From: a virus
Reading direction: 5' to 3' (one strand)
Length of the DNA: 26,346 bases
IMG/VR virus record: IMGVR_UViG_3300009029_000002
Location: 1 to 26,346 of that record
Numbering within the stretch: position 1 is the stretch's first letter; every line of letters starts with the position of its first letter. Below are positions 6,551-26,342 of this stretch, piece after piece. The notes below the pieces were generated by a model. That model was not told where the DNA came from and made no database searches. It worked only from the letters and a program-made list of their open reading frames with translations. The position numbers were made by a program, and so were the translations under genes.

Positions 6551-9500
6551 GCGCTCTCCTTGGGTTGTCTCGCGTCGAGTTGTTTGATGGCTTCCCAGAG
6601 GATCGCGACCGCACCAACGAGGTCGTACCCATCGCTGACGCGAATCCAGTCGGGCATGTTGTCGGCAATAAGACCAACTCCACCAGTGGTCGGTTTCGCT
6701 TTCCAATTCCATGCGTGCAGGCCGTTGTTTGCGACCAGGCTAAGCGCGTCAACGGTAAGCGGAGTGACGTTATCCTTCAGTGCCAGTGATGAAGGAGGGG
6801 CGAACGCATTCGCCACCAGGGTGCCGTATACCGTGTCGCCAGAATCGCGGGCTTGTATTATTGCGGCGGAGTTTAGAGACTTGAGCCCCGACAGCCCGAA
6901 CTGGATAAAATGGTCTCCACCACCAGAGGGAGCCGAGCTGAAAATAAACTCGTTGCCCCCCCCAGACCCTTCCCAAGTAGCCATTTGAAGTGCTCCGGGG
7001 CGTGCGTCTGGGTTTCGGATCGAGGATACCGTACTATCGCCGTTGAACATGCGAATCTGGTTTATGGAATACCCGCCACTAAGTCCTATGTCCACCCTGG
7101 ACCCGGACCCGCCCGAGGTGGAGAAGGTGCTGGCCGTAATCACCGAGTCAGAAACGTTTGAAGCACTGACCCATGACCCGCTGATGTCTCCACTGCTGAT
7201 GGTGCCACCACTAATCGCACCACCGGTGACGGTCCCGCCGCTAATGTCTCCGCCGGTGATCGTCCCGCCGCTGATAGCGCCGCCGGTGATCGTCCCGCCG
7301 GTGATTGTCGTACCAGTGATGTCTCCACCAGTGATGGTGTTACCGCTGATGGTGTTACCGCTGATGGTCCCGCCGCTGATGTAGCTACCATCGATCGTCG
7401 TACCAGTGATCGCACCACCACTGATGGTGTTGCCATAGATGGTGTTACCACTGATGGTCCCGCCACTGATGTAGCTACCATCGATCGTCGTACCAGTGAT
7501 CGCACCACCACTGATGGTCCCGCCACTGATTGTTGACCCGGTGATGGTCCCGCCACTGATCGCCCCACCAGTGATGGTGCCACCACTAATCGCACCACCG
7601 GTGATGGTCCCGCCGGTGATCGTGCCACCGGTGATCGTGCCGCCACTGATCGAGGATCCGCTGATGGACCCAATGAACGACGCGGACCCGTCCACCGCGT
7701 TGATCGCAACCGTGACCGCGTTGATCGTGTTGTACGCCCGGAGCCCGGCGTCGTTGATCTCCACCCGGGCACCGGTGTCAGCGGTTTTGATCCGGGCAGA
7801 CACGGTCAGGTCCGCGACCAAGCTCCCCGCGAGGAGCTTCGCGATGTTCATGTGGGCGATCTGACCGTCCTGCACGGTGGTCGGTGTCGCGGTGGCCTGC
7901 GCCGACTGCAACGACCGGTACCCGGCTGTTTCCACAGCGACGAACCGCACGAAGTACGGGGTACCGGCGACGAGCCCGGTGATCGGGGAGGTTCCGGAGG
8001 CGCGCAATGCGTCAACGAGGGTCGCCTGGGTGGGGGTGAACCCGCTGGTGGTGGACAGGTGAACTTCGAGGTAGTCGAAGTTGTCCGGGTAGGCCAGGAC
8101 GCTGCTGTCTTTCCCGTCCCAGGTGGCCCGGATGCACAGCGGGAACGTCGCCACGTCTAGGGTGGGCATGCTGGGCGGGTTCAGGGTGGACACGGGCACC
8201 CCGGGGGTGATTCCCGTGAACACGGTCCATGCACTGGGGGTGCCGCTGCTGTTGACCGCGCGGACCTGCGCGGAGAACGCCGTCCCGGGTGGCATTGGTG
8301 CACTGACCAGGGTGGTGCTGATGGTGGTGCCGGCGTCGATCCACGCGTGGATGCCCAGCCGGTACTGCACCTCGTAGTGGTCGAGGTCGGTCAGGATCGA
8401 CCCGTCCATTTTGGTCGTGGACGCAGCCCACGCGAACGTCAAGTATTCGACGTGGTTGCCGTTGCCGTCCAGGACGTCAATGCCTGTCACGGTCATGGAC
8501 GCCGGCGCGACAGGCGGAACCATGTCCAAACTGACAACAGGGGTGACGGTGCCGCGCGGTGTACCGGACGGCAGCGCCGACGACAGGGCGAACGCACTCG
8601 TGTTGATCGTTAGCGTGCTCAAGGCCGGCTCAAGCAGGTTCAAGGTGCGCTGCACCACCCGGGCGAACGTGTTCAAAGCGAGTGGTTTGTCCCACACCCG
8701 CACCACATCGCCCAGACCGGGAATAGTGTCGCTGGTCAACATCACCGGGGTAACCGTGTAGGTGACGCGGGGGATCGCGAGCATCGCCAGCTGGGAGATG
8801 CCCCACGCTTTCAGCAGTGCAGGGTCGGTGAGGGTGTCGTTGGTGCTCGTCGCGGCTTTGATGACGTGCGGCCAGGCTGGGACTTGCGCGTCATACCACG
8901 AATAGTCCTCGACGTATCCGACACCACCATTGACGGTGGTGATGTCCAACCCGGCCGCACCAAGCGGATACAGACGGGTCGTGAGTTGGGTGGTGTCAAC
9001 AACCCTGTTGTCGGAGCCGACGTTGGACCCTGCCGCGTACAAGGCGATCGGGTAGGTTTCGCCGCGCACGTCGAACAGGGACACGGTGCGGTGAACCGTG
9101 TCGAAGGCGAGCTCGCCACCGAACACCCCGGGCAGTGCCCTGATCGCAGCCAGCGGTGACGCGAACGTGTCGATCTCGAAGGTGCGGGTCGGACCACCCG
9201 ACACCGCCGGGTCAATCGTCCCGATGGTCCACCCCGACCCGACCAGGATTGCGGTGAGCGCGTCTGCGGTGGTGTTCACGAACGGGGTGACGGTGATCGG
9301 GTCCGCGGTGCCGAGGTCGTACCAGAGGCCATCCGCTGTAACGTTGAAGATTTTCGCCCCGGAGTTGTCGGTGCCGGTGGTGACGGTGCGGATCACAAAC
9401 ACGTCCTGTGCCTGCCCGCCGGCCGCGACCGGGTAGTTGATCAGGACACACATCTCGTTTTTGAGCAACCCCGCCTTGAGGTCCCCGGCGGGGAGTGAGA

Positions 9501-11165: not shown

Positions 11166-14100
11166 TTACCGACCCATCCCGGTGGCGCGCTTCTGTGCGG
11201 CGTTCATCTGGTACAGGCCCGCCTGGATCTTCGTCAGGTCGCCTTCGTTGCGGATGACAAGGTCGCCGTTGATGTTCATCAGTGGTGCGGTTGCGGTGGT
11301 GGCGGCCGTGGGTGTTGCAGGGGTGCCGTTGGAGGCGTACCCAATACCGTTCGGGCCCGCCCCGGGCAGGCCAATGTGGTTGCGGGGTCTGCGGGGTGCA
11401 GGCCCGTTGAGGGTGGGGGCACCGATTGATGCGGCTGTGCCGGACAGCGCCCCACCAACCGCACCCAACACCCCACCGGTGCCAAGGGGACCCGCCGCGG
11501 AGGAGAACGCGCTGATTTGTGACTCAAGGCTTTGGATCGCCAGGATCGCCGCTGTGAGCCGGCGCACGGCAGGGTTTGAGAGAACAGTCTCGCCGCCGTG
11601 GAACAACATGATCTCGGGCCCGTTCTCACCCACGACCGCAGCACCGGGTGCGGCGTTGCTGGTACCACCCGCATAACCTTTCGGTGTCGCGCCTACTGCC
11701 TGTTGGACATTGAAGATGCCGCCGTACACGGCCTGGATGTACCTGAACGACGACGCCAGGTTGCTGACCGGGTCCCAGATGTTGTTCACCAATGCGGGGT
11801 TGCGATACGCCTGGTAAGTAGAGTCGATCATCTGCGCGATGCCCTTTGACGGCGTGCCTTTCATGGCGTTGCTGTCAGTGTTATTTTGGGCCGTGGGGTT
11901 CCCGCTCGACTCGCGCATCACCAGGGTGGCTGCCGGGCCAGCCCATGTCATCGGGAGACCGTCAGCTTTCAACGCTGCGGCGATCCAGGCATTCACCTGG
12001 GCGGGGGCAGCGGCACCGCCGCCGGCGGGGGCGGCTCCGGATGCGGCTGCGGCTGCGGGCGCGGCTTCTTTGCCTTTGATGAACGCCAGTAGCTTGTCCA
12101 GGACGTCATCAGCCATGTGGTCCATGCCGACCCCGACCGGCCCAAAATGGTCCATGCCTTTGGCGACGAGTTTCAACGGACCGATCACGACTTTGTCGAG
12201 CGCTATTGCCGCCCCGGAGCGCAAAACCCCAGCAACGTCACCGACCCACGACGACAAGGTGCTGCCCACGTTACTGGCCAGCGTTTTGGCCGCATTCAAT
12301 TCGGTGGATGCCACCTTACCGATCGCACCCGCGACCGGGGTGATCCCGGTCGCTTTGCCGACAACACCGGCTGCGTTCTTCAACCCGCCCAACAGCCCAC
12401 CGCCTGCGAAGTGACCGCCGCTCGCACCACCACCGAACCCGAGGGTGGACATGAGCTGGTCTGAGCCGCCGAACGCGGACACGATCCGCTTCGGCACCAC
12501 CACCTCACCGGGTGTCCCGAAGAACGGGACATCGTCCCGGTTGTGGCTGCCGGGGATCGCGCCACCCTTAGAGAAGTGGGGGATCGACCCTTCCGGGATT
12601 TGCGGGATGCTCAAGCCCAGGTGGGACAGGAGGACGTTAGCCCCACCGATCAGCGGGTTGATGACGGAGTGCACCACAAACCAGACCGGTTCACCGAACA
12701 CCTTCTTGATCCCGTCCCAGATCGTTTTGATCCCAGACACGGTGGTGTTGAACAAGCCCTTGAACCCGTCAAGGGCTGTCGACGCGGTGCTTTTCAGGGT
12801 TGACCACGCCGAGGACGCAAGGCTTTTCAGGTCATTCCACAGGCTGTTCCAGATCCCTTTGATGGAGGTCCAGACGCCCGTGAACAGGTTCTTGTACGCG
12901 GTGAAAATGGCGCCGAGCTGGGTTTGGATCCAGTTCCAGGCTGCCGAGGCCAGGTTCTTGATGTCCGTCCACAGCGAGTTCCAGGTGCTCTTGACTGCTG
13001 TCCACAACCCGGTGAACAGGTTCTTGTACGCGGTAAAGACGGCGGTGAGCTGAGTTTGAACCCACGTCCACGCTGCGGACGCGAGGTTCTTCACGTCCGT
13101 CCACAGTGAGTTCCACGTGGCTTTGACCGCGGTCCACAACCCGGTAAACAAAGTTTTGTAGGCGGTGAAGATGGTCGTCAGCTGAGTTTGGACCCACGTC
13201 CACGCTGCGGACGCCAAATTCTTAATGTCGGTCCACAGGCTCGTCCACGTGGCTTTGATCGCAGTCCACAACCCGGTAAACAAGGTTTTGTACGCGGTGA
13301 AGACAGCGGTGAGTTCAGTCTTAACCCAGGTCCACGCGGCTGATGCGAGGTTTTTGATGTCGGTCCACAGGCTCGTCCACGTGGCTTTGATCGCAGTCCA
13401 GTTGCCTTTGAACAGGTTCTCGAAGGTGGTGAAGATGGCAGAAAGTCCGGCTTTCACCACGTTCCACGCTGCGGACGCGAGGTTCTTGATATCCGTCCAC
13501 AGGCTGTTCCAGATGCTCTTGACGGCAGTCCACAACCCCGTGAACGAAGTTTTGTACGCGGTGAAGATGGTCGTGAGTAGGTTCTGGATCCAGGTGACCG
13601 CGTCGGAGAACAGCTTTTTGATGTCCGTCCACAGGCTGCCCACAACCGTTTTCAGGGTTGTCCACAACCAGGTGAACAGTTTGATCTCCAGATTCAACCA
13701 GTCCAGGACCAGGGTTTTCACCCAGGTGATCGCGACCTGGAAGATCTTCTCCAGGTCCGCCCATAACTTCGTGAATAGCACTTTCAGGTCCGTCCACAGC
13801 TTCGTGAACAGCTTGACCGCATCGAGCAGCCACACGCTGATCAGGTTTTTCACCCAGGTGACCCCTGCGGTGAAAACCTTAAGGACGTCCTTCCACACGG
13901 TGGTGAGCAGCGCACTGATCGTGCCCCAGTGCTGGAAGATCAGCAGGGGGATCGCAATGAATGGGGCGACAGCGGCCAACGCTGCCGGCCCCCACGTTTT
14001 CAGTAACCCCCAGATCTTCGCCCAGATCCCCGTGATATCCGACCACAACACCGACAAGGAGTGACCGATCCAGGTGATGGAGTCCACGAACGCGACCTTC

Positions 14101-16526
14101 AGCACCTTCCCCACAGAGTCGACCAGGTCGTGGAACGGCTTGAAATGGTTGTAGGCCAGGTAGACGGCTGCGGCCAGCGCGACGATGGCGACAACAACAA
14201 CGCCGATCGGGGACATCGCCCATGCCGCGTCGAGGAGTTGGGTTGCTGCCGCCCATCCTTTGGTGGCAGCGGAGGCGATGTTGCCGGCACTGGCCAACTT
14301 GGCCGCAGACGTCACCGCCTTGCCGACCTTGCCAATGATTCCGGTTTCGATGATCGCCCCAACACCCATCAACGCCGGGCCGGCGGTGACGAGCATCCCA
14401 CCGAACTGTTTCCCGATCGAGGAAACCCCGTCCTGAACCTTGGCTTTCAGCCCGGACAGCTTCCCGGTGAACGTGTCCACGGCGGCGGCGGCCTGACCGT
14501 TGAGTGTTTTCCCGCCATTCTTCATGGCGGCGTCGAGCAGTTCCGTGCCGGTTTTCGCTTTGCCCTGCGCGGCGTTCATGGTGTCGGTGGACTTGCTGAC
14601 CTTGCCTTGTGCCGCGGTGACCGCGTCGTGGGCGTTACGCAACGCGATCTGCTCACTGGTGGACAGCTTGCTGCTGGCTACCAGTTTGGTCTGAATGTTG
14701 TGTAGGTTCGTTTCGGCGGTGACGGCCTGCGTGGATCCTGCACCGTGGGCTTTGACCGCCGCGGTGACCGCGTCCTGCGCTTTACCCAGCGCGATCTGAG
14801 AGCTCACGGACAGCTGCGTTTTGCTGGCATCCACAGCGGTCAGGTCGGTGAGCTTCTTCTGTGCCGTAGCAAGGGCGTCCACGGCGGTCTGGTGTGCTTT
14901 GGTGGCGGTGGCCGCGGTTGTGACACTCTTCGAGCCGGCGTCAACAACAATCCCGTACTGCTTCAACGCCTTCGACGCACCACCACCGAGGTAGATACCC
15001 AGTTTCTGCGCGGCCGAGCCCAGGTCCACATGCTTGACCGCGGCCATGTTCAACGTGAGCCCGAACGACTTCATCGCTACGTCCGGGCTGTGCGTGGTCA
15101 CCGCGAGCTTCTGCAACGCGCCCATCGTCTGGTCGGCGGTGTACCCGTACTTCTCACCGGTCTTGATGGACGCCTCGACCTGGCCTTTGTATTTGTCCCA
15201 GGACCCGCCGCTGGCGGTGATGGTGGCCTTCAGCTGGTTCTGTGCGGCCTCGTCTTTGCTGCTCGCGGTGGACAGCATCGCCCCCGCAGCCGTGGCTGCG
15301 GCACCAATACCCAGAAGCGCCTTCCCGGACTTGGTGCCGGCCGACTCGAACAGGGTGCCCATGCCCTGCATTTTCATCATCAGGTCGGAGATCGGTGACA
15401 TGACACCACCGGCGGAACTGGCGATGATCCCGAACGCGCCCTGCCCTGCGATCCCCGCCCGTTTCAGGCTGCCGCCGGATGCTGTGGCTTTCGCGTCCAC
15501 CTTCGATAGTGCGGTGTCAACCCCGCGGGCCGCCGTGGCGAGGTCGTTCTGTGCGGTCCTGGCCTGCAGCGAGTCTTTCCCGAACTGGGTGACGGCCGTG
15601 CTGTGCCGCTGCTGCGCGGCCAACAGTTTGTCCTGTGCCGCCACCTGCTCCGCCGAGAACCGTTTGGATGCGTCAGCGGCTGCCGCGGTGGTCTTCGCCA
15701 AAGCGTCAACAGCCTTGCTGGACTTACCGAGCGAGTCCTGGATCTTGGTGCCGTTGAACGCAGAGTCCAGGCTGGTCCCCGCCTTCTTCGCAGACGCACT
15801 GACCGCCTTCTCAAAGGCAGCGCCGCCAGCCGTACCAGACTTACCAAGCGAGTCTTGAATCTTCGACCCGTTGAACGCGGAGTCAAGAGATGTGCTGGCC
15901 TTCTTGCCGGACGCACTGACCGCTTTCTCAAGGGCGGCGCCACCTGCCGTACCAGACTTGCCCAAAGAGTCCTGAATCTTGGTGCCGCTGAACGCGGAGT
16001 CAAGAGATGTGCTGGCCTTCTTCGCGGACGCACTGACCGCTTTCTCTAGTGCTGTACCGCCAGCCGTACCGGATTTGCTGAGCGAGTCCTGGATCTTCGA
16101 CCCGCTGAAGGCGGAGTCAAGGGATGTCCCCGCCTTCTTCGCGGACGCACTAACGGCCTTCTCCAAGGCTGCGCCACCTGCCGTACCGGACTTGCTGAGC
16201 GAGTCCTGGATCTTGGTGCCCTTAAACGCATCATCCAGGCTGACTCCGGCTTTCTTCGCAGACGTACTGACCGCTTTCTCAAGGGCAGCACCGCCGGCTG
16301 TACCGGACTTGCTGAGTGAGTCCTGGATCTTGGTGCCCTTAAATGCGTCATCCAGGCTGGTCCCCGCCTTCTTTGCGGACGCACTGACTGCCTTCTCCAG
16401 TGCCGCACCACCTGCTGCACCAGCAGCACCAAGGTTCTTCGTCAGGGCGTTGCTGACAGACGCGTCAACACCTTTGGAGATCGCCTTGATCTCGATGTAC
16501 GCAGAACCCAGGACGTCGGTGCTCAC
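11166..16526 (-). CDS. Tape measure protein with lysozyme-like domain, 1786 aa
   Basis: The start is GTG at 16526, overlapping the chaperone stop as GTGA. Domains in order: residues 35-268, six copies of a 39-residue repeat; about 280-700, Ala-rich helical tape-measure core with S-K-D-E-A-A-Q-N-Q-L-K-A-T; hydrophobic segments near 770-790 and 845-865; about 870-1260, Trp/Phe-rich 11-residue-type repeats including five 44-residue units; about 1300-1480, a Gly-rich region with P-G-E-V-V-V-P-K; about 1515-1610, a goose-lysozyme/transglycosylase-like domain with R-E-S-S-G-N-P (Glu1539), K-G-I-A-Q-M-I and a D-P-V-S-N helix; then a tail with R-R-L-T-A-A-I. It sets tail length, and the lysozyme domain probably opens the wall at entry. 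It is the longest gene here, right after the chaperones. Confidence 0.93.
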   Translation of the reverse strand: MSTDVLGSAYIEIKAISKGVDASVSNALTKNLGAAGAAGGAALEKAVSASAKKAGTSLDDAFKGTKIQDSLSKSGTAGGAALEKAVSTSAKKAGVSLDDAFKGTKIQDSLSKSGTAGGAALEKAVSASAKKAGTSLDSAFSGSKIQDSLSKSGTAGGTALEKAVSASAKKASTSLDSAFSGTKIQDSLGKSGTAGGAALEKAVSASGKKASTSLDSAFNGSKIQDSLGKSGTAGGAAFEKAVSASAKKAGTSLDSAFNGTKIQDSLGKSSKAVDALAKTTAAAADASKRFSAEQVAAQDKLLAAQQRHSTAVTQFGKDSLQARTAQNDLATAARGVDTALSKVDAKATASGGSLKRAGIAGQGAFGIIASSAGGVMSPISDLMMKMQGMGTLFESAGTKSGKALLGIGAAATAAGAMLSTASSKDEAAQNQLKATITASGGSWDKYKGQVEASIKTGEKYGYTADQTMGALQKLAVTTHSPDVAMKSFGLTLNMAAVKHVDLGSAAQKLGIYLGGGASKALKQYGIVVDAGSKSVTTAATATKAHQTAVDALATAQKKLTDLTAVDASKTQLSVSSQIALGKAQDAVTAAVKAHGAGSTQAVTAETNLHNIQTKLVASSKLSTSEQIALRNAHDAVTAAQGKVSKSTDTMNAAQGKAKTGTELLDAAMKNGGKTLNGQAAAAVDTFTGKLSGLKAKVQDGVSSIGKQFGGMLVTAGPALMGVGAIIETGIIGKVGKAVTSAAKLASAGNIASAATKGWAAATQLLDAAWAMSPIGVVVVAIVALAAAVYLAYNHFKPFHDLVDSVGKVLKVAFVDSITWIGHSLSVLWSDITGIWAKIWGLLKTWGPAALAAVAPFIAIPLLIFQHWGTISALLTTVWKDVLKVFTAGVTWVKNLISVWLLDAVKLFTKLWTDLKVLFTKLWADLEKIFQVAITWVKTLVLDWLNLEIKLFTWLWTTLKTVVGSLWTDIKKLFSDAVTWIQNLLTTIFTAYKTSFTGLWTAVKSIWNSLWTDIKNLASAAWNVVKAGLSAIFTTFENLFKGNWTAIKATWTSLWTDIKNLASAAWTWVKTELTAVFTAYKTLFTGLWTAIKATWTSLWTDIKNLASAAWTWVQTQLTTIFTAYKTLFTGLWTAVKATWNSLWTDVKNLASAAWTWVQTQLTAVFTAYKNLFTGLWTAVKSTWNSLWTDIKNLASAAWNWIQTQLGAIFTAYKNLFTGVWTSIKGIWNSLWNDLKSLASSAWSTLKSTASTALDGFKGLFNTTVSGIKTIWDGIKKVFGEPVWFVVHSVINPLIGGANVLLSHLGLSIPQIPEGSIPHFSKGGAIPGSHNRDDVPFFGTPGEVVVPKRIVSAFGGSDQLMSTLGFGGGASGGHFAGGGLLGGLKNAAGVVGKATGITPVAGAIGKVASTELNAAKTLASNVGSTLSSWVGDVAGVLRSGAAIALDKVVIGPLKLVAKGMDHFGPVGVGMDHMADDVLDKLLAFIKGKEAAPAAAAASGAAPAGGGAAAPAQVNAWIAAALKADGLPMTWAGPAATLVMRESSGNPTAQNNTDSNAMKGTPSKGIAQMIDSTYQAYRNPALVNNIWDPVSNLASSFRYIQAVYGGIFNVQQAVGATPKGYAGGTSNAAPGAAVVGENGPEIMLFHGGETVLSNPAVRRLTAAILAIQSLESQISAFSSAAGPLGTGGVLGAVGGALSGTAASIGAPTLNGPAPRRPRNHIGLPGAGPNGIGYASNGTPATPTAATTATAPLMNINGDLVIRNEGDLTKIQAGLYQMNAAQKRATGMGR
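12888..13547 (-). repeat. Five tandem 132-bp repeats in the tape measure gene
   Basis: Units of 44 residues contain F-T-G-L-W-T-A, S-L-W-T-D-I-K-N-L-A-S-A-A-W and I-F-T-A-Y-K. Trp and Phe recur at 11-residue spacing, typical of tape measure proteins. A degenerate sixth unit follows to about 12756. The array contributes 220 residues of helical length. Confidence 0.88.
15723..16424 (-). repeat. Six tandem 117-bp repeats in the tape measure gene
   Basis: Units of 39 residues are recognised by A-L-E-K-A-V-S-A-S-A-K-K-A-G and T-K-I-Q-D-S-L-S-K. They occupy residues 35-268 with no indels between copies. DNA identity between neighbouring units is high, so the array is recent or homogenised. Confidence 0.92.
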
Positions 16527-16798
16527 CCTTGCTCACCACCAGGGATGCCGCCGGCGAACCGCATCGCGTTGTCCGCGCCGGCCTGATGCTCCGGGAGTAG
16601 ACCCCACGTTTCGGCGGCTGTGTTCGCGGGTGCCCGATGCTCAGCGGCTGCCGCGTTCTCCTCAAGCCACGCATCGACTTTCAGCCGACCGGTACTGCGC
16701 GCCTCCTCCGCAGGGTTGAACGACTCACCGACCAGCAGGGAGTACACGACAGCCAGAGCCTGCGGCCCAGGCATTTCAAGGATGTCCAAACCTGCCAT
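16523..16798 (-). CDS. Second tail assembly chaperone ORF, 91 aa
   Basis: The ATG at 16798 has GGGAGG 7 bases upstream, so it can be translated alone. Its stop overlaps the tape measure GTG. The protein (M-A-G-L-D-I-L-E-M-P-G-P-Q-A-L-A-V-V-Y-S-L-L) is acidic, helical and ends Gly-rich. In tailed phages the two short genes before the tape measure are the chaperones, usually joined by a programmed frameshift. Here the frame is open upstream of the ATG to about 16912, across the stop of the first ORF in the -1 frame, so a fused product is possible. No canonical slippery heptamer is seen. Confidence 0.75.
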   Translation of the reverse strand: MAGLDILEMPGPQALAVVYSLLVGESFNPAEEARSTGRLKVDAWLEENAAAAEHRAPANTAAETWGLLPEHQAGADNAMRFAGGIPGGEQG

Positions 16799-16845
16799 CG
16801 TGCACCTCCCTTCGACGTCGTCCCAGTTCGCAACAGCCCAAGCGC

Positions 16846-17235
16846 TTAAGGCTTGGACTGCTCCGTAGGGCGTTTCTCGCTGTAGGTTTCGATCAGCCAG
16901 TTGGTGACCTCAGCGAGCAGGTCCATGTCCATGACGTTTTTGGTATCGCCCATGACCTGTTTCCAGCGGGGTTTCTCCGCAGGAACAATGACCCGGTCCA
17001 GGAACGTGTTGATCGCCGCGACCCGGTCGGACTCCTCACCGGCCATCGACGCCCCAACCTCGAGGAGCCATTTCCCGGGGACCTCCGGGACTGCGTTGAA
17101 CCCGGCGGCGGCGGGCTGTGTCGTCTTGGCCTCACCCTCTTTCGGGTGCGGGTTGGTGACCTTGTCGTAGGTGATTTCAAACGGAATGGGTTTCGCGGTG
17201 ACCTTGCGGGCACGGAACTGCTTGATGCTGGCCAT
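16846..17235 (-). CDS. Tail assembly chaperone, first ORF, 129 aa
   Basis: The ATG at 17235 has AGGAG 8 bases upstream. The protein starts M-A-S-I-K-Q-F-R-A-R-K and contains a basic beta-rich N-terminal part, an acidic helical middle (D-R-V-A-A-I-N-T-F-L-D-R-V-I) and W-L-I-E-T-Y near the C-terminus. Length and position immediately before the tape measure match the gpG-type chaperones, which coat the tape measure during tail assembly. The stop TAA at 16846 lies in the possible frameshift zone. Confidence 0.78.
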   Translation of the reverse strand: MASIKQFRARKVTAKPIPFEITYDKVTNPHPKEGEAKTTQPAAAGFNAVPEVPGKWLLEVGASMAGEESDRVAAINTFLDRVIVPAEKPRWKQVMGDTKNVMDMDLLAEVTNWLIETYSEKRPTEQSKP

Positions 17236-18677: not shown

Positions 18678-19502
18678 TCATGGGTAGGTCGTCCCGGCGC
18701 GCCGCCGGGTTTCAAGGTCGGGGGACCACACCAGTGACGGGAACTTCTGCTTGCCCGGGTTCACACTGCGGATCCAACTGTCGACGTCGTACAGGCCGGT
18801 CAGTCCCTCATCCAGGAACTGCATCGGGTCCAACATGGCGAAGCTGACGCCCTGCCGGGTGATTGACTGCACCCGAGCAGGGAGCCGGTTCGTTGACCCC
18901 GTGTACATGCGGGCGAACTCCAACGCCAACGACGTCGCAGCGGTCACACCACCCGCCGGAGGGTCCTCACCGAAGTCGAAGCTGACACTGAACGTTCCCG
19001 CCTCCGTGTCAGGCAACATCATGTTCTGCACCCGGGGCCACCCCGAGCGCTGTGTCGCCTGCGCTGTCGCAGACGGCAACGTGCGCACCAGGTAACGGAA
19101 GTCGTCAATGCGGTACTCGTCGCTCGGGATGGTCACCCCGTCGATCTTCACCACGTTCACGGCCCGGACCGGGTACGCACCGAGGTCGATCTGTACGGTG
19201 TCCGGGCCCTCAGTGCCCTGCCCGAACCAGCCACCACCGGTCGCCCACGACATCGCCGCCCCAACCCCCGAAAGGGTTTGCAGGTACTGGCTCCACGACC
19301 GGATCGTCATAGAGCTCGGCCGCGCTGACGGGCGCACCAGGAGGGTCGCCAGCCCCGGGTAGCGCCGCCCCGACGCCGCATAGGCCAGGTCCGACGCCTG
19401 CTGGCACGCCGCGGTGAGTGTCGCCCGCGGTGCCCCGGCCAGCGACGCGTCGCGGGCCGTGACCATCGCAGAGGTGCACCAGATGGTGCTGACGCCACTC
19501 AC
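18678..19502 (-). CDS. Head-tail connector/adaptor protein, 274 aa
   Basis: The start is GTG at 19502 with AGGAG 8 bases upstream, formed right at the preceding stop. The N-terminal helical part (L-T-A-A-C-Q-Q-A-S-D-L-A-Y-A-A-S-G-R-R-Y-P-G) resembles the helix bundle start of gp6/gp15-type adaptors. The rest is beta-rich, with V-N-V-V-K-I-D-G-V-T-I-P-S-D-E-Y-R-I-D-D-F at about 124-144. G-E-D-P-P-A-G-G-V-T-A-A-T-S-L-A-L-E-F follows at about 185, and then W-S-P-D. Such connectors sit under the portal and join head to tail. Ring position (adaptor or stopper) cannot be told. Confidence 0.75.
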   Translation of the reverse strand: MSGVSTIWCTSAMVTARDASLAGAPRATLTAACQQASDLAYAASGRRYPGLATLLVRPSARPSSMTIRSWSQYLQTLSGVGAAMSWATGGGWFGQGTEGPDTVQIDLGAYPVRAVNVVKIDGVTIPSDEYRIDDFRYLVRTLPSATAQATQRSGWPRVQNMMLPDTEAGTFSVSFDFGEDPPAGGVTAATSLALEFARMYTGSTNRLPARVQSITRQGVSFAMLDPMQFLDEGLTGLYDVDSWIRSVNPGKQKFPSLVWSPDLETRRRAGTTYP

Positions 19503-19514
19503 CCCAGCTGCTCC

Positions 19515-20153
19515 TTAGTGGGGTGCCGCTGAGACGGCCGTCGTCGCAGCCGGGATCGCGGTGTCCCGCATGACGTTGACCACGCGACTCGTGTCGTAGA
19601 TGAAGTCACCGGCTGGCCCGGCACCCCACTGCGCGTTCTGGAAACCCCAACCGTCATACTGGTTGGCCATCCGGTTGGTGTCCGCGGTGCGGTTCGACTT
19701 GCGGAGCTGAATCTTCGGCAGTACCCAACGCCAGTACGGGAAGTCGAGCGGCTGGGCACCGTTCACAACAGCCCGGGTCCACGCCTCGATGGACACCCCG
19801 TTGGGGTTGCCCTCCACCATGATCGGCGGGTACTGGAAGCCCTGCACGTTGCTGCCCGAAGTGAACACGGTTCCGCCGGTCAGGAGAACCTCGAGGACCG
19901 GGTCCGGTTTCAGCGTCTCCACCTGGCAGGTGAGGCGCTTCATCACGTCCATGATCTTCCATGTCACCGCGAGGACCCCACCGGCGTTGCGGTCGCTGAT
20001 CTCGGGCCCGGTCTCGATGTCCGGGTTGAACTGCAAGTGCACCAAGTCCTGGGTGACGTACATGTTCTGCGCGAGGGTGGTGCCGGTGGCGGTCAGCTGG
20101 CAGACACGCAACGCGACGAGGTGCAGGGACGCCGCACCATCATTATCGGGCAT
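19515..20153 (-). CDS. Probable major tail (tube) protein, 212 aa
   Basis: The ATG at 20153 has AAGGAG 7 bases upstream. The N-terminal part has T-T-L-A-Q-N-M-Y-V-T-Q-D-L-V-H-L-Q-F-N-P and I-E-T-G-P-E-I-S-D-R-N-A-G-G. Next comes V-T-W-K-I-M-D-V-M-K-R-L-T-C-Q-V-E-T-L and P-D-P-V-L-E-V-L-L-T-G-G. This gly-rich loop, then 'K-R-L' strand, then 'P-D-P..L..L-L-T-G-G' series is the pattern of actinophage tail tube proteins. The C-terminal half is W/Y-rich beta. Against the call, the gene lies before the connector genes and not just before the chaperones, so a neck or decoration role is the alternative. Confidence 0.6.
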   Translation of the reverse strand: MPDNDGAASLHLVALRVCQLTATGTTLAQNMYVTQDLVHLQFNPDIETGPEISDRNAGGVLAVTWKIMDVMKRLTCQVETLKPDPVLEVLLTGGTVFTSGSNVQGFQYPPIMVEGNPNGVSIEAWTRAVVNGAQPLDFPYWRWVLPKIQLRKSNRTADTNRMANQYDGWGFQNAQWGAGPAGDFIYDTSRVVNVMRDTAIPAATTAVSAAPH

Positions 20154-20168
20154 AATGAATCTCCTTGG

Positions 20169-21059
20169 TCATGAGTTGAGTACGGCTTGGATTCCTGCGT
20201 GACACTGGCCATCCCAGGACACGAGCGCTGCGCGCTCCGCGCGGACGGTGACGAGGTTGCCTGCGCGGTCGGTGGCTTTGATCAGCCAGTCGTCGCCGTC
20301 CTGGTCCGGGTCCGGGAACGTGCTGATCGGGCCCAACCGCACCTCGGTCATCCCGGTGGCGTACATCCACGTGGACCCGACCGGGGGGGCCACACCACCC
20401 GGCCCCGTGTTCGGGTAGCCGCTACCCGGGACGACGATGGTGTCCCTCGCGGTGAGGATGTAGTTCCCTACCCGCCGGGTGGTGATCGTCAGGTACGGCA
20501 GGGCTTCCGGGCGGACATGGATCATGCCGCGGGCACCAAGACCGGTGTCCGCGATGAACTGCTCCAACACCTCGAACGCCCGCTGGATCGTGGGGGTCGC
20601 CCCAGCCTCCGGGTAGGTGGCGTTCAGGTTCTGGAAACCCCACCCACCTGAGGCTGCCGATGAGGCGGCAAGGAACCTGTTCGGGTACCCCTGCGCCTGC
20701 GCCAGTGCGCCCGACCACAGCTCACACTCAAGGGCTTTCGCGGTCGCCACATCCAGGCGCCGCTTTGCCCTGTTGATGAAGTCGTGCTGCTCAAAACCGA
20801 ACGTGCTGTTCGTGTCGTCGGCGTTGATCAGGTACGGCAACCACTCCACCACCCCCGGTGGGGGCTCGATGTTGTCCGCGTTCGAGGAGGTGGTGTCACA
20901 GACGTCGGAAAGCCATGCCGCAGAACTGTTTTCGGGTTGGAACGCGATCCCGTCAATCCAGCGCCCGCCAGTGGTGTCCACAGGTAGGACACTGGACGTG
21001 ATGATCGACACCGCTGGTGGCTGAAGTTTCGGTGGTGCGACCGGGCTTCTGAGTGCCAT
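20169..21059 (-). CDS. Second capsid protein (candidate pentamer/vertex subunit), 296 aa
   Basis: The ATG at 21059 has AGGAGG upstream. The N-terminus is Pro-rich (A-P-P-K-L-Q-P-P-A-V). The middle carries R-A-K-R-R-L-D-V-A-T-A-K-A-L-E-C-E-L-W-S-G-A-L-A, G-W-G-F-Q-N-L-N, and a helix V-L-E-Q-F-I-A-D-T-G-L-G-A-R-G-M-I-H. The C-terminal half is beta-rich with T-W-M-Y-A-T-G-M-T-E-V-R-L-G-P-I. Helix-then-strand order and position right after the major capsid gene resemble the paired capsid genes annotated as hexamer and pentamer proteins in some actinobacteriophages. I therefore infer an HK97-like vertex protein; a minor head protein is the alternative. Confidence 0.68.
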   Translation of the reverse strand: MALRSPVAPPKLQPPAVSIITSSVLPVDTTGGRWIDGIAFQPENSSAAWLSDVCDTTSSNADNIEPPPGVVEWLPYLINADDTNSTFGFEQHDFINRAKRRLDVATAKALECELWSGALAQAQGYPNRFLAASSAASGGWGFQNLNATYPEAGATPTIQRAFEVLEQFIADTGLGARGMIHVRPEALPYLTITTRRVGNYILTARDTIVVPGSGYPNTGPGGVAPPVGSTWMYATGMTEVRLGPISTFPDPDQDGDDWLIKATDRAGNLVTVRAERAALVSWDGQCHAGIQAVLNS

Positions 21060-21083
21060 GGGTTTCTCCTCCTACCTGCTGGC

Positions 21084-21152
21084 CTGGACCGGTGTCGGGG
21101 CGGGCGCGGAGAGCACCACACCCACCCCGACAGAAAAGGGGTGACCGGTCAG
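21084..21152 (-). promoter_or_regulatory. Strong intergenic hairpin between the two capsid genes
   Basis: Arms at 21121-21132 and 21093-21104 pair over 12 bp with a single G-U, around a 16-base loop. Short outer arms (21145-21152 and 21084-21092, core CCGG) extend the fold and touch the stop codon of the major capsid gene. No T-run follows on either side, so it is not a standard terminator. It lies just upstream of the ribosome site of the second capsid gene. Confidence 0.7.
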
Positions 21153-22855
21153 TAGGTGTTGGTGTCCTTGGTGCCCGCACTCAGACCGTTCGGGCGGATC
21201 GAGGAGATGATCTCCAGGCTCTCGAAGCCCCGGAACGCGATGCCCTCGAAGGACTCCACGAACGTCTGGTAGTCGTTGGTGCCGTCCAGCACGGAGTCGC
21301 GGACCACCCCGATGTCCAGGCGGCCACCGTCGAGACGCTGGAACGTGCCCTCGGCGAACAGGTGCCACTGGACGGTGTGCGGGAAGTCGAGGAGGCCGGC
21401 GCCGGTGCTTTGCGCCCCGAACCCCTGAGTGGCGAACGCGATGTTGTTGTGGGTGGCGCCGGTGGTCCCGTCGAGCATCCACACCGGGCTGATCCCGCGT
21501 GCCGCAAGCAGCGAGTCCACCTGGGCGTCCGAAAGGCTGAACGACTCAGTAACATCCTGCCCGTGCGCCATCTCACGGAGCAGGTCGGACCGGATCAGGT
21601 CCCGCAAGAAGTCAGGCAGGACCGCGCGCAGGTTCACGCCACGGTTGAGGCGGGACCGGTACCGGTACGCCGCAGATGCCTGATCCAAGGTGGCCAGGAA
21701 GTCGCGGGCTGCACCCAGAAGCTGACCGGACGACACCGTGATGGACGCTGTGCTGATCTTGCCCAACCTGTTCAGCTCACGAACCCGGCTGGCGTTGGCC
21801 ATGGCCAGGTCCGTGTTCGCGGCCACCATCTCCGGGTAGAACCGGGACCCCATGTTGCCGAACTGCAGGCGGGTGGGGATGGCGTCAACGTAAACCTCAA
21901 CCTCAGACCCGCACGCGATCGTCTGCACGGGCTTGGTACTGGTGCCGGGGGAGGTGTCGATCGCCTCGGTCCACACTGTGGTGCCCGTGCGCCCGACACC
22001 GGTGAACGTGGGGGGTTGCATGAACCGCAGGCCACCACGAGTGGCACCGAACGTTGGCAGGCTGTCACCCAGGGGCTCGTCGTCCACCGACAGGACCATG
22101 GAGAGGGAGAAGTCGACGTCGACCGGGTTGCACACACCACCGGAGGCGATGATCGCCTGCGGTGAGATGACCGCGGTAAGTTTGCGTTCGTTCTCCGCCA
22201 CGTCGGCGCCGAGGGTCCGATCCTCCGGGTAGGACCACTGCGCGGAGGCGACCAGGCGCTGCTCCCCGTCGCCACGGCCCAGGCGGGACACGACTTCGGA
22301 CATCATCTGGGCGAGGGCCTCACGGCTGCTGATCTCATCCCCGGACTGGATGTTCCCGGAGGGGCGCTGCGCGAACAGGTGCGCCCGGTTCGTGCCGTCG
22401 CCGGCGGCGCGGGGTTTGGAACGCCCGGTGTGCTGGTTCGCCACACCGAGGGCGGGGCGCTTCACCGCCAGGGTGGTGGGGGTCTTGGTGGAGGCCGCCA
22501 CAGCCACAGGGGCTGCGTCATCCTCCGCGTCGACCTCGGTGTCATCCTCCGCCACCTCGGTGGCGACATCCTCGACGTCGCTGTCCTCACCCTCATCCTC
22601 GTCGTCTGAGGCTTCCGCGTGGACAGCGGTGCGCAGCTCGGCGGCGCGAGCGTTGCTCGTCTCCGCTTCCTGCTCACGCACCGTCTGGGTTTCGCTCACC
22701 CGGGCGATCGCCCCGTGGTACTCCTCCATCAGCGCGACGTTGTTTGCCTCGTCGGCTGCGTCGAACGCCGATACCAGGTCGGTGTACAGGGTGGCGAGGT
22801 CGTCGTCGGACAGCTCTTCGATGGTGGCGAGCCGGTCAATCAGTGCTTGATCCAT
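21149..22855 (-). CDS. Major capsid protein, HK97-type, with long acidic N-terminal arm, 568 aa
   Basis: The ATG at 22855 has AGGAG 11 bases upstream. Residues 1-75 are helical (D-D-D-L-A-T-L-Y-T-D-L-V-S-A-F and a heptad-rich stretch). Residues about 80-120 are extremely acidic (D-D-E-D-E-G-E-D-S-D-V-E-D), a scaffold or delta-domain-like arm. After a basic, flexible stretch (K-T-P-T-T-L-A-V-K-R-P) the capsid domain begins near 190. It shows V-D-V-D-F-S-L-S-M-V-L-S, helices around L-P-D-F-L-R-D-L-I-R-S-D, V-W-M-L-D-G-T-T-G-A-T-H-N and the final strands. The arm is probably removed or acts as internal scaffold, since no separate scaffold or protease gene is visible here. The gene leads the head operon. 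Confidence 0.82.
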   Translation of the reverse strand: MDQALIDRLATIEELSDDDLATLYTDLVSAFDAADEANNVALMEEYHGAIARVSETQTVREQEAETSNARAAELRTAVHAEASDDEDEGEDSDVEDVATEVAEDDTEVDAEDDAAPVAVAASTKTPTTLAVKRPALGVANQHTGRSKPRAAGDGTNRAHLFAQRPSGNIQSGDEISSREALAQMMSEVVSRLGRGDGEQRLVASAQWSYPEDRTLGADVAENERKLTAVISPQAIIASGGVCNPVDVDFSLSMVLSVDDEPLGDSLPTFGATRGGLRFMQPPTFTGVGRTGTTVWTEAIDTSPGTSTKPVQTIACGSEVEVYVDAIPTRLQFGNMGSRFYPEMVAANTDLAMANASRVRELNRLGKISTASITVSSGQLLGAARDFLATLDQASAAYRYRSRLNRGVNLRAVLPDFLRDLIRSDLLREMAHGQDVTESFSLSDAQVDSLLAARGISPVWMLDGTTGATHNNIAFATQGFGAQSTGAGLLDFPHTVQWHLFAEGTFQRLDGGRLDIGVVRDSVLDGTNDYQTFVESFEGIAFRGFESLEIISSIRPNGLSAGTKDTNTY

Positions 22856-23139: not shown

Positions 23140-24972
23140 CTATGACGTTGAGTCGCAGTTGGTGAGCACGTTGCCGGTTCGGACATTTCCGACCAAGGAA
23201 TATCCGGGAGAACCACTGTAGGCCTCGACGGAGAATCGGAGATCACAACGCTGCAAGGTGTTGTTCGCCACGATGTTATTGACGGCCGGGGCTCGACCCA
23301 ACCGGGTGGTAAACCTGCTGGTTGCTGCGACCAGGCCATCCAGACCCCATACCTCGACCCCTCCTTGTGGCCCGCCTGTGTTGGCGTTGGTGCCGGTCAG
23401 GGTAGAGATGCAGGTGTTTCCTGTGATGATGTTGCCGATGCAGAAGCCCCATAGATCAATCGAGTAGGTGCCCGCGTCTTCTATGGTGTTGCCGCTGATC
23501 GTGTTGCCTACCATGGGCAGTCCGATCACTACCTCATCACCAACGCTGATCCCGGTCCAGACCGACACGCGACAACCGTTAGCGAGTTGAACCGCCCCGC
23601 TTGAACCAGTTATATCAAGTACGGTCCCAGCACATGCGCCTGTCGTTATGACCATTGTTTGGAAGTAGAAATAGTTACTCGGTAGAGTCGAGAACGCAGA
23701 GTCAAGAGTGATCGCGAGTTGCCCACCCGGAACGCCGCTGTTGAAGCCCTTGGCCGCGACGGTTCCCCAGTCGACGACGCACACACCAGCGGCGTCGTTG
23801 CCGAGGGAGTCGAGGCTGATTCCCTCCTCAGAGGGGCTGACGATCCGGTTACCCATGATCGTGTTGCCCTGAATGTTGACCGTCCCGGCCACGTTGTGTC
23901 TAGCCAGTCCGAGGATGCCGGTGACGCCACCCTCGGTGGTGTTGCCTATGAACTGGCAGCCTTGCGCTGCATAGAAGATGAAATGACGTCCTGTGGCAGC
24001 GGCGTTTACGGATGAGTTATTCGACACCCGGCAGTTGAAAACTGTTTCCATAAGCACGGCAACGGCACAGTCTTGGAACTGATTGCCGTCCACGACAATC
24101 CGGGCGGGACCTCCCCCGGTACAGTTATTCAAGTAGACCGCTACGCCGTTCGGGAACGTCGTGAACGCACACCTGTTCACGTTGCCATCTGTTGCGGCTG
24201 TCGCCGTGCGCATTCTTATCGCGGCGCTGCCCGTAGCGACATTTGTTCCGGTGAAGGTGATACCCGTGACGGCGTTGTTGGTGGTGAACTCGAAACCGGG
24301 ACCATCCCAAATGGTGACGCCGCGGCCTTGGCCCATGATCTGCACACCGTCAGGCAGTGAGATTTCGCCGCCAGTGTTCCTTATCCGACCCGGTGGCAGC
24401 AGAACCGTAAAACCGCCTGCGGCTTGTACTGCTGTGATCGCTGCGACCACGGCCGCTCGGTCGTTCGTGGTCCCGTTAGCCACCACGCCAGAACGTCGAG
24501 CGTCGTAGGGGCCGATCAGCCCATAGGTGTTACTAGCGACCGTGGGTGTGAGGAACGATGAGGTCAGCGTCCACTTGGCCACGTCTGTGGCATACGCAGC
24601 CGCCGAGGTGTGGGCGACGTTCGCCGTCACGATGTCGTTGTTCGGGCTGACGATCTGCTGACCGAGGGTGTAGGCGGTGGTCGGCGCCCAGCGCGGGACC
24701 ATCGTTGTGGACAGGTTCCACTTCCCGGCCTCGGTGGGGGTGTACGTGCTCGCCGAGGTGTGGGCGACGTTACAGGTGGCGACGTCGTTGTTCGGGCTGG
24801 CGACCTGCCGGCCGAGGGTGTACGCCGTGGTCGGTGCCCAGCGCGGGACCATCGTTGTGGCAGCGGCAGCGGCAGCCCCAGCGACGTCCGCGCCGATCGC
24901 GGCAGGGGTGAGAACGTCCGCACCACCAGAGGCGTGACGGGCCGCGTGGACGCCGTTCGGGAAAACGGCCAT
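23140..24972 (-). CDS. Tailspike with two binding-like modules and a parallel beta-helix, 610 aa
   Basis: The ATG at 24972 has GGAG 8 bases upstream. The N-terminus (H-A-S-G-G-A-D-V-L-T-P-A-A-I-G-A) is a common phage fibre start. Residues 42-86 and 92-135 are two copies of an aromatic module with W-A-P-T-T-A-Y-T-L-G, S-P-N-N-D, A-H-T-S and a closing W, like small chitin/carbohydrate-binding modules. From about 150 a pectate-lyase-like beta-helix begins (G-V-V-A-N-G-T-T-N-D-R-A-A-V, then V-L-L-P-P-G, I-M-G-Q-G-R-G-V), followed by many short N-x-I/V strands such as V-S-N-N-S and I-T-G-N-T. It probably binds or degrades a host surface polysaccharide. Catalytic residues cannot be assigned. The terminator follows it. 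Confidence 0.85.
   Translation of the reverse strand: MAVFPNGVHAARHASGGADVLTPAAIGADVAGAAAAAATTMVPRWAPTTAYTLGRQVASPNNDVATCNVAHTSASTYTPTEAGKWNLSTTMVPRWAPTTAYTLGQQIVSPNNDIVTANVAHTSAAAYATDVAKWTLTSSFLTPTVASNTYGLIGPYDARRSGVVANGTTNDRAAVVAAITAVQAAGGFTVLLPPGRIRNTGGEISLPDGVQIMGQGRGVTIWDGPGFEFTTNNAVTGITFTGTNVATGSAAIRMRTATAATDGNVNRCAFTTFPNGVAVYLNNCTGGGPARIVVDGNQFQDCAVAVLMETVFNCRVSNNSSVNAAATGRHFIFYAAQGCQFIGNTTEGGVTGILGLARHNVAGTVNIQGNTIMGNRIVSPSEEGISLDSLGNDAAGVCVVDWGTVAAKGFNSGVPGGQLAITLDSAFSTLPSNYFYFQTMVITTGACAGTVLDITGSSGAVQLANGCRVSVWTGISVGDEVVIGLPMVGNTISGNTIEDAGTYSIDLWGFCIGNIITGNTCISTLTGTNANTGGPQGGVEVWGLDGLVAATSRFTTRLGRAPAVNNIVANNTLQRCDLRFSVEAYSGSPGYSLVGNVRTGNVLTNCDSTS
24570..24699 (-). repeat. 130-bp direct repeat, copy B
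   Basis: It differs from copy A (26207-26336) at a single base by hand comparison. It encodes the second binding-like module of the beta-helix spike. Confidence 0.93.
24717..24849 (-). repeat. Divergent third copy of the module repeat
   Basis: It is homologous to copies A and B but with many substitutions and a 3-bp insertion. It encodes the first module of the beta-helix spike. The T-E-A-G-K-W ending and a Cys-containing strand set it apart. Confidence 0.88.
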
Positions 24973-25127: not shown

Positions 25128-26342
25128 TCAGTGCAGCCCTGAGCGGTAGGGCATCCGCACGGCTGTCCGGAAGATCGTCTGAGCCAAAGCCTCGTGGCCT
25201 GAGTCGTTGCGGTGCCACACGTCGGAGTACATCATTGTGACGTTGGTGTACCCCTCGCCTGCGTGGACAACCCGCACGTAAGGGTCGCCCCCCCATTCGG
25301 GTTCGGCCAGTACGGATGCGACGACGGCGTTGTGACCGGCGAGTAAGTCGTTGCCCTGCGCCGTAGTGAAGGGAAGCGCCGGATAGGACGCGAGTTCGCC
25401 GTCCTGAATGACGACGATGCTCGGCGGCGCGGTCGAGGCCGGGTAGAGATATCCGTCAAAGAAGAACGAGTTGTTGCCCCCACCGCGATTGGTGACGACG
25501 ACGCTTTTGGACCCGGATGGTAGTCCGGTGACCCGGTAGGCGTTCAGTTGGTAGCCTGCCGGGTTGACCCCGGAAGTATCGGCCGAAGAGACGTCCGATG
25601 TCAGGAGGGTGCCGCCGTAGACCGTGCTACCCACGATCACATCGAATGTTGATGATGGTGACCATGCGGCACACATTCCGTAGACCATGATCGTGATCTC
25701 GGTAGGGATGTAGCCAGCGATGGTTGCTGTCGCTCCGATGGTAGACGTGGTACGACATTGGCCGAGCCGACTTCCCGTGGGCACGGGGAGCGTCCACGTT
25801 GCGCCCGCATAGGTGATACTCGCGTCACCGCCGGGGACATACTGGCTGGTCCGTAGGACCCGCAGGATGGTGCGCAGGGCATTGGTGAACCCGATGAGGT
25901 CTTGGGGTGCGCTGGTCAAGGTGGTGTGGAGCACGTCATTCAAGACGGAATCGAGAACGACCAGACTGGCGGTGTTGGGGGTCCATGCCGTCACGTCAGC
26001 CCCGCCGATGACCTCAAAGAGTGTCTGGATCATGGAATCGCCGGAGTGACCTCTGTTGGACACTGAGGCTGCGCCGATCAGCACGCCGAGGCGCTCTACG
26101 AACCGGTGCGCCTGATCGGATGCGCCGGTCCCCGAGACGTAGGAATGGCCGTACCCGATCAACGCGCAACCCGTCAGCGCCGTAACGGGTGCTCCGTTGA
26201 TACCGTTCCACTTGACCACGTCTGTGGCATACGCAGCCGCCGAGGTGTGGGCGACGTTCGCCGTCACGATGTCGTTGTTCGGGCTGACGATCTGCTGACC
26301 GAGGGTGTAGGCGGTGGTCGGCGCCCAGCGCGGGACGGCCAT
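25128..26342 (-). CDS. Tailspike-type SGNH hydrolase with N-terminal binding-like module, 404 aa
   Basis: The ATG at 26342 is 4 bases from the window edge, so its ribosome site is not visible and a start further upstream is possible. Residues 3-46 are the aromatic module shared with the beta-helix spike. The SGNH fold follows: Ser67 in G-Y-G-H-S-Y-V-S-G (block I, G-H-S in place of G-D-S), Gly98 in N-R-G-H-S-G-D-S (block II), Asn135 in L-D-S-V-L-N-D (block III), and Asp374 and His377 in S-D-V-W-H-R-N-D (block V). A beta-rich insert lies between about 175 and 300. It probably removes acyl groups from a host surface glycan, as phage esterase spikes do. The substrate is unknown. Confidence 0.85.
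   Translation of the reverse strand: MAVPRWAPTTAYTLGQQIVSPNNDIVTANVAHTSAAAYATDVVKWNGINGAPVTALTGCALIGYGHSYVSGTGASDQAHRFVERLGVLIGAASVSNRGHSGDSMIQTLFEVIGGADVTAWTPNTASLVVLDSVLNDVLHTTLTSAPQDLIGFTNALRTILRVLRTSQYVPGGDASITYAGATWTLPVPTGSRLGQCRTTSTIGATATIAGYIPTEITIMVYGMCAAWSPSSTFDVIVGSTVYGGTLLTSDVSSADTSGVNPAGYQLNAYRVTGLPSGSKSVVVTNRGGGNNSFFFDGYLYPASTAPPSIVVIQDGELASYPALPFTTAQGNDLLAGHNAVVASVLAEPEWGGDPYVRVVHAGEGYTNVTMMYSDVWHRNDSGHEALAQTIFRTAVRMPYRSGLH
26207..26336 (-). repeat. 130-bp direct repeat, copy A
   Basis: It encodes the N-terminal module of the SGNH spike. One base differs from copy B (24570-24699) by hand comparison, whereas copy C is clearly older. Confidence 0.93.

Follow-up and report, generated by a model that had tools for sequence, protein, structure and literature searches.

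Separate proteins for the pentamers and the hexamers of the capsid are rare among well-studied tailed phages, T4 being the textbook case, and in HK97 the delta domain is a scaffold fused N-terminally to the core of the capsid protein. In most well-studied phages, one protein occupies both the pentamer and the hexamer positions (PMC9958956). In T4, gp23 forms the hexamers and gp24 occupies eleven vertices; the two proteins are about 20% identical, 65 residues are removed from gp23 during maturation and only 10 from gp24, and in the presence of gp24-bypass mutations in gene 23 it is gp23 that forms the pentamers (PMC9958956). Hexamer and pentamer proteins have also been described for Gordonia phages of cluster DR (PMC9413003). 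For phage Rosebush, map EMD-21122 at 6.7 Å was described with a single major capsid protein (MCP) forming pentamers and hexamers; according to the authors, no atomic model was possible at this resolution, the neighboring gp16 is not mentioned in the text, and gp17 was proposed as a decoration protein based on a gel band (PMC7150772).

Here, we analyze two adjoining genes in a stretch of viral DNA of 26,346 bp (referred to as the window), which comprises the entire virus record and is probably a fragment of a phage genome. We report that the two genes belong to a known type of capsid gene pair that is annotated in many phages, and that they represent a new and divergent case of it.

Results

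Two adjoining capsid genes and their neighborhood

The MCP (proposed hexamer protein; 568 aa; 21149..22855, minus strand, ATG start) matches phrog_777 ('major head protein') over its full length (E 7.9e-63; residues 10-562 on positions 8-572 of the 580-position profile). The second capsid protein, which is the proposed pentamer or vertex protein (296 aa; 20169..21059, minus strand, ATG start), likewise matches phrog_779 ('unknown function') over its full length (E 4.2e-18; residues 7-285 on positions 14-265 of 284). The two open reading frames (ORFs) are 89 nt apart, and an AGGAG-type ribosome-binding-like stretch precedes the start of each. Judging from the PHROG matches and from homologs in hundreds of phages, both ORFs are real genes. 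The coordinates agree with a previous sequence-only reading, which had proposed two adjoining capsid genes for 568 and 296 aa at 20169-22855.

The capsid genes are followed by those for a major tail protein (212 aa; 19515..20153, minus strand; phrog_792, E 4.9e-06) and a head-to-tail adaptor (274 aa; 18678..19502, minus strand; phrog_783, E 1.3e-47), and further on, past the adaptor, by those for a tape measure protein (1786 aa; 11166-16526, minus strand) and a distal tail protein. Residues 335-1022 of the tape measure protein also match phrog_971 ('endolysin'), and this protein may carry a lytic domain or, alternatively, the family may owe its name to tape measure proteins that are fused. The tape measure gene is preceded by two small ORFs (16523-17235, minus strand) at the position where tail assembly chaperones are usually encoded. 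The two frames overlap at 16846-16909, and a search of this overlap for a canonical slippery heptamer (X XXY YYZ) found none.

Directly upstream of the MCP gene, at the position of the protease and portal genes in relatives, the window has two spike-like genes. One encodes a protein of 610 aa (23140-24972, minus strand) in which two CBM5/12-like stretches are combined with a NosD-like beta-helix, and the other a protein of 404 aa (25128-26342, minus strand) in which a single CBM5/12-like stretch accompanies a GDSL-hydrolase-like domain; in both cases, the Pfam matches are weak and mostly below the cut-off. The two proteins have a stretch in common with the tail protein family phrog_11373. Close relatives encode a portal (phrog_776) and portal/MuF/protease-type proteins (phrog_859 and phrog_18402) upstream of the MCP, and annotated phages likewise have portal/protease-type genes at this position. 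We considered a phage lacking portal and protease and rejected this idea because the record stops in the region upstream of the MCP, where relatives encode both; the genes for portal and protease probably lie past the end of the fragment. Because the window is a probable fragment, the absence of a protease gene is uninformative about the phage. The previous observation that no scaffold or protease gene is visible applies to the window.

Predicted structures of the two proteins

An AlphaFold2 model of the 296-aa protein, generated from 86 aligned sequences, had a mean pLDDT of 86.5 and a pTM of 0.85. Using Foldseek, this model matched 273 PDB chains at E<=0.001, and the 50 listed of these comprise encapsulins and the capsid proteins of phages or of elements related to them; T4 gp24 is not among the fold matches listed, which carries no weight either way. 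In VIA-align, the model aligned with HK97 Head II (2ft1_G; Z 13.0, 237 residues, 4.2 Å) and with 3jb5_G (Z 13.0, 238 residues, 3.9 Å). Among predicted viral proteins, the nearest to the model were uncharacterized proteins of actinobacteriophages, and major capsid proteins came next. Based on the model and these matches, the 296-aa protein is predicted to have an HK97 fold.

For the 568-aa protein, a model generated from 71 aligned sequences had a mean pLDDT of 78.3 and a pTM of 0.58. The core of this protein (residues about 228-562) is also predicted to have an HK97 fold: in the model, it aligned with HK97 (8cfa_G; Z 15.0, 222 residues, 3.6 Å) and, as the best match, with the Pyrococcus virus-like particle (2e0z_A; Z 15.8), 215-222 residues being aligned in both cases. 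Structure prediction and fold search had been suggested previously as a check of both proteins; with best Z scores of 13.0 for the 296-aa protein and 15.8 for the core of the 568-aa protein, the HK97-like fold that had been guessed for the smaller protein is borne out by its predicted structure.

The modeled N-terminal domain of the 568-aa protein (residues 3-83) consists of helices at residues 3-10, 17-36 and 40-83 with a pLDDT of about 86-97. Residues 88-154, by comparison, have a pLDDT below 50, and the acidic linker (residues about 85-156) is predicted to be disordered. The acidity peaks at residues 81-116, where 20 of 36 residues are D or E, a density that was unmatched in 2000 shuffles of the protein. 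In relatives, the linker varies from 60 to 250 residues with a median net charge of -43, and the segment past the linker has a constant length of 394-423 residues. Because the alignments with HK97 begin near residue 228, residues 157-227 represent an extra conserved segment. It had been suggested that the acidic arm (residues about 80-120) may serve as an internal scaffold. The acidic stretch exists, but the prediction is that it forms a disordered linker. The natural reading is that the helical part (residues 3-83) and not the acidic linker would be the folded element of a fused scaffold, which would be cleaved off during maturation, and a scaffold role for the N-terminal domain is likely. 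The 296-aa protein has neither the N-terminal helical domain nor the acidic linker and, because there is an in-frame stop five codons upstream of its start, it has no scaffold domain.

Homologs in actinobacteriophages

In tblastn searches, the 568-aa protein had relatives in 654 phage records, and most among the matches listed are annotated as 'major capsid hexamer protein'. The 296-aa protein had relatives in 14 records, while the second protein of Gordonia phage Twister6 (gp22) had relatives in 245 records and gp13 of Mycobacterium phage Thora in 501, with most among the matches listed for the latter annotated as 'major capsid pentamer protein'. Named phages are at best about 42% identical to the window MCP over its core and 29-35% identical to the small protein. 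Pairs of phrog_777 and phrog_779 proteins annotated as 'hexamer' and 'pentamer' are present in Thora (gp12/gp13), Kheth (gp15/gp16) and LittleFortune (gp28/gp29); in Kheth, which belongs to the same species as Rosebush (Rosebushvirus rosebush), the gp15/gp16 pair is followed by gp17. Therefore, the hexamer/pentamer gene pairs of actinobacteriophages that the sequence-only reading had mentioned correspond to phrog_777/phrog_779 relatives, which are so annotated in hundreds of records. Of note, these GenBank names are annotation and not tests. The window pair shares with the actinobacteriophage pairs the protein families, the gene order and a large protein made up of an N-terminal region, an acidic linker and a conserved core; it differs in that its proteins are divergent and that the MCP gene is immediately preceded by two spike-like genes.

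No homology between the 568-aa and 296-aa families was detectable in a profile comparison. Sequence and profile searches of the PDB with both families gave chance-level matches only and no solved relative that would place the small protein experimentally. Pfam scans of members of both families gave no convincing match, and single-sequence scans of viral contigs gave no confirmed relative. Alignments of 18 sequences were too divergent as search queries; smaller alignments retrieved relatives.

Conserved pairing and gene order

The second gene follows the MCP gene in all of the 159 loci that have both, with a median gap of 71 nt and a gap of <=150 nt in 156, and in 147 of the 147 loci in which all four genes were recognized, they are arranged as in the window (MCP, second protein, major tail protein, adaptor); we note that some contigs are represented both among the loci retrieved with the second protein and among those retrieved with the MCP and that these counts are, therefore, not fully independent. 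Among 80 viral-contig loci fetched by MCP similarity, only one (L021) is without the partner, and this locus ends 30 nt past the MCP gene. In the sole GTDB match (L171, a contig of an Acidimicrobiia MAG), the MCP relative is split over several ORFs (7630-9037) and no pentamer gene was found nearby; this locus resembles a prophage in decay or an assembly with frameshifts. The distances of the MCP and the second protein correlate with r 0.84, compared to r 0.96 for the MCP and the tail protein and r 0.91 for the MCP and the adaptor. Because the correlation within the pair does not exceed those with neighboring genes, co-evolution offers no specific support.

Insertions in relatives of the small protein

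In several close relatives of the window MCP, the second protein is ~430 aa long and has an insertion of 113-128 residues at the position of window residue 62, which is absent from the 296-aa protein itself. Relatives of the 296-aa protein with this insertion are encoded at L019:9720-11018, L022:9233-10528, L035:4032-5330, L020:9246-10271 and other loci. Because this insertion precedes the long helix, it is probably in the E-loop, and by eye it looks Ig/Fn3-like. In L020, the insertion has weak matches to phrog_752 and phrog_8040 and resembles a domain of other phage head proteins. We rejected the weak phrog_752 ('major head protein') match as evidence because it lies within the inserted domain (residues 56-178) and, thus, outside the capsid fold. 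Other relatives have an insertion of 63-65 residues at window residue 220 (L039:9917-11011, L046:9256-10353, L087:9538-10629 and L045:9092-10183); the L039 protein has a weak E1_FCCH match.

Discussion

Besides the actinobacteriophage pairs, the closest known systems are those of T4 and HK97. As in T4, there are two shell proteins with an HK97 fold (predicted here) that are encoded by separate genes, and only the larger one has a long N-terminal region, which is a propeptide in T4 and a proposed propeptide here. Inserted domains occur in both systems, here probably in the E-loop and in certain relatives of the 296-aa protein. The systems differ in that the inserted domain of T4 was described in gp23 and in that T4 has separate scaffold proteins, of which none was seen in the window. 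HK97 gp5 shares with both window proteins the (predicted) HK97 fold and with the larger one a helical domain located N-terminally of the core; it differs in that one protein forms pentamers and hexamers instead of the products of two genes, and in the window MCP the core is preceded by about 70 additional conserved residues.

We suggest that the capsid of this phage is probably built from two HK97-fold proteins, with the 568-aa protein in the hexamers and carrying a removable built-in scaffold, and the 296-aa protein in the pentamers at the vertices. In this scenario, the 568-aa protein would assemble into hexamers, and its helical N-terminal domain, held on the acidic disordered linker, would act as a built-in scaffold inside the procapsid; a maturation protease encoded beyond the end of the fragment would then remove this domain. 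The 296-aa protein, consisting of the HK97 core only, would assemble into pentamers that occupy the 11 vertices without a portal, similar to T4 gp24 alongside gp23. Our analysis shows the two genes, the predicted folds of both proteins, the conserved pairing and order, and that the small protein has no N-terminal domain; we infer the vertex position of the 296-aa protein, the scaffold function and the proteolytic removal.

We also considered that the 296-aa protein could be an HK97-fold accessory protein of the virion located off the fivefold vertices, for example near the portal vertex or as a minor shell component, with pentamers and hexamers alike made of the 568-aa protein. The use of one protein for both positions in most well-studied phages (PMC9958956) and the Rosebush map, described with one major capsid protein in pentamers and hexamers, favor this alternative, but that 6.7 Å map came without an atomic model and without mention of gp16, and a full HK97 core together with strict pairing fits a capsomer better; we consider this arrangement unlikely. 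Both proteins might instead be able to enter pentamers, with the small protein as a facultative vertex subunit, similar to the T4 gp24-bypass mutants in which gp23 fills the vertices (PMC9958956). Because no intact locus with enough space for the second gene was without it, which argues against dispensability over evolution, we regard a facultative subunit as improbable. We found no published proof of any homolog in virions, as would be expected if the small protein were an HK97-like assembly factor that leaves the virion; such a role is very improbable for a full HK97-fold protein encoded between capsid and tail structural genes, and the inserted domain of some relatives also occurs in other phage head proteins. 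Vertex pentamers of the 296-aa protein beside hexamers of the 568-aa protein, therefore, remain our preferred arrangement.

More tentatively, it is possible that the corner protein was recruited independently of the hexamer protein or diverged from it beyond recognition, and that the pair represents a second two-gene capsid solution besides that of T4, with Ig-like domains in the presumed E-loop of some members. If so, the shells built in this way would hold genomes that range from about 53 to 195 kb, based on record lengths. The pair is present in hundreds of sequenced actinobacteriophages, with neither a convincing Pfam match among scanned members nor a solved structure that can be found by sequence, and the vertex placement is currently assumed in annotation. 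If confirmed, vertex occupancy would provide a function for phrog_779, now of 'unknown function', and a system for relating a separate vertex protein to capsid size across this range of genome lengths.
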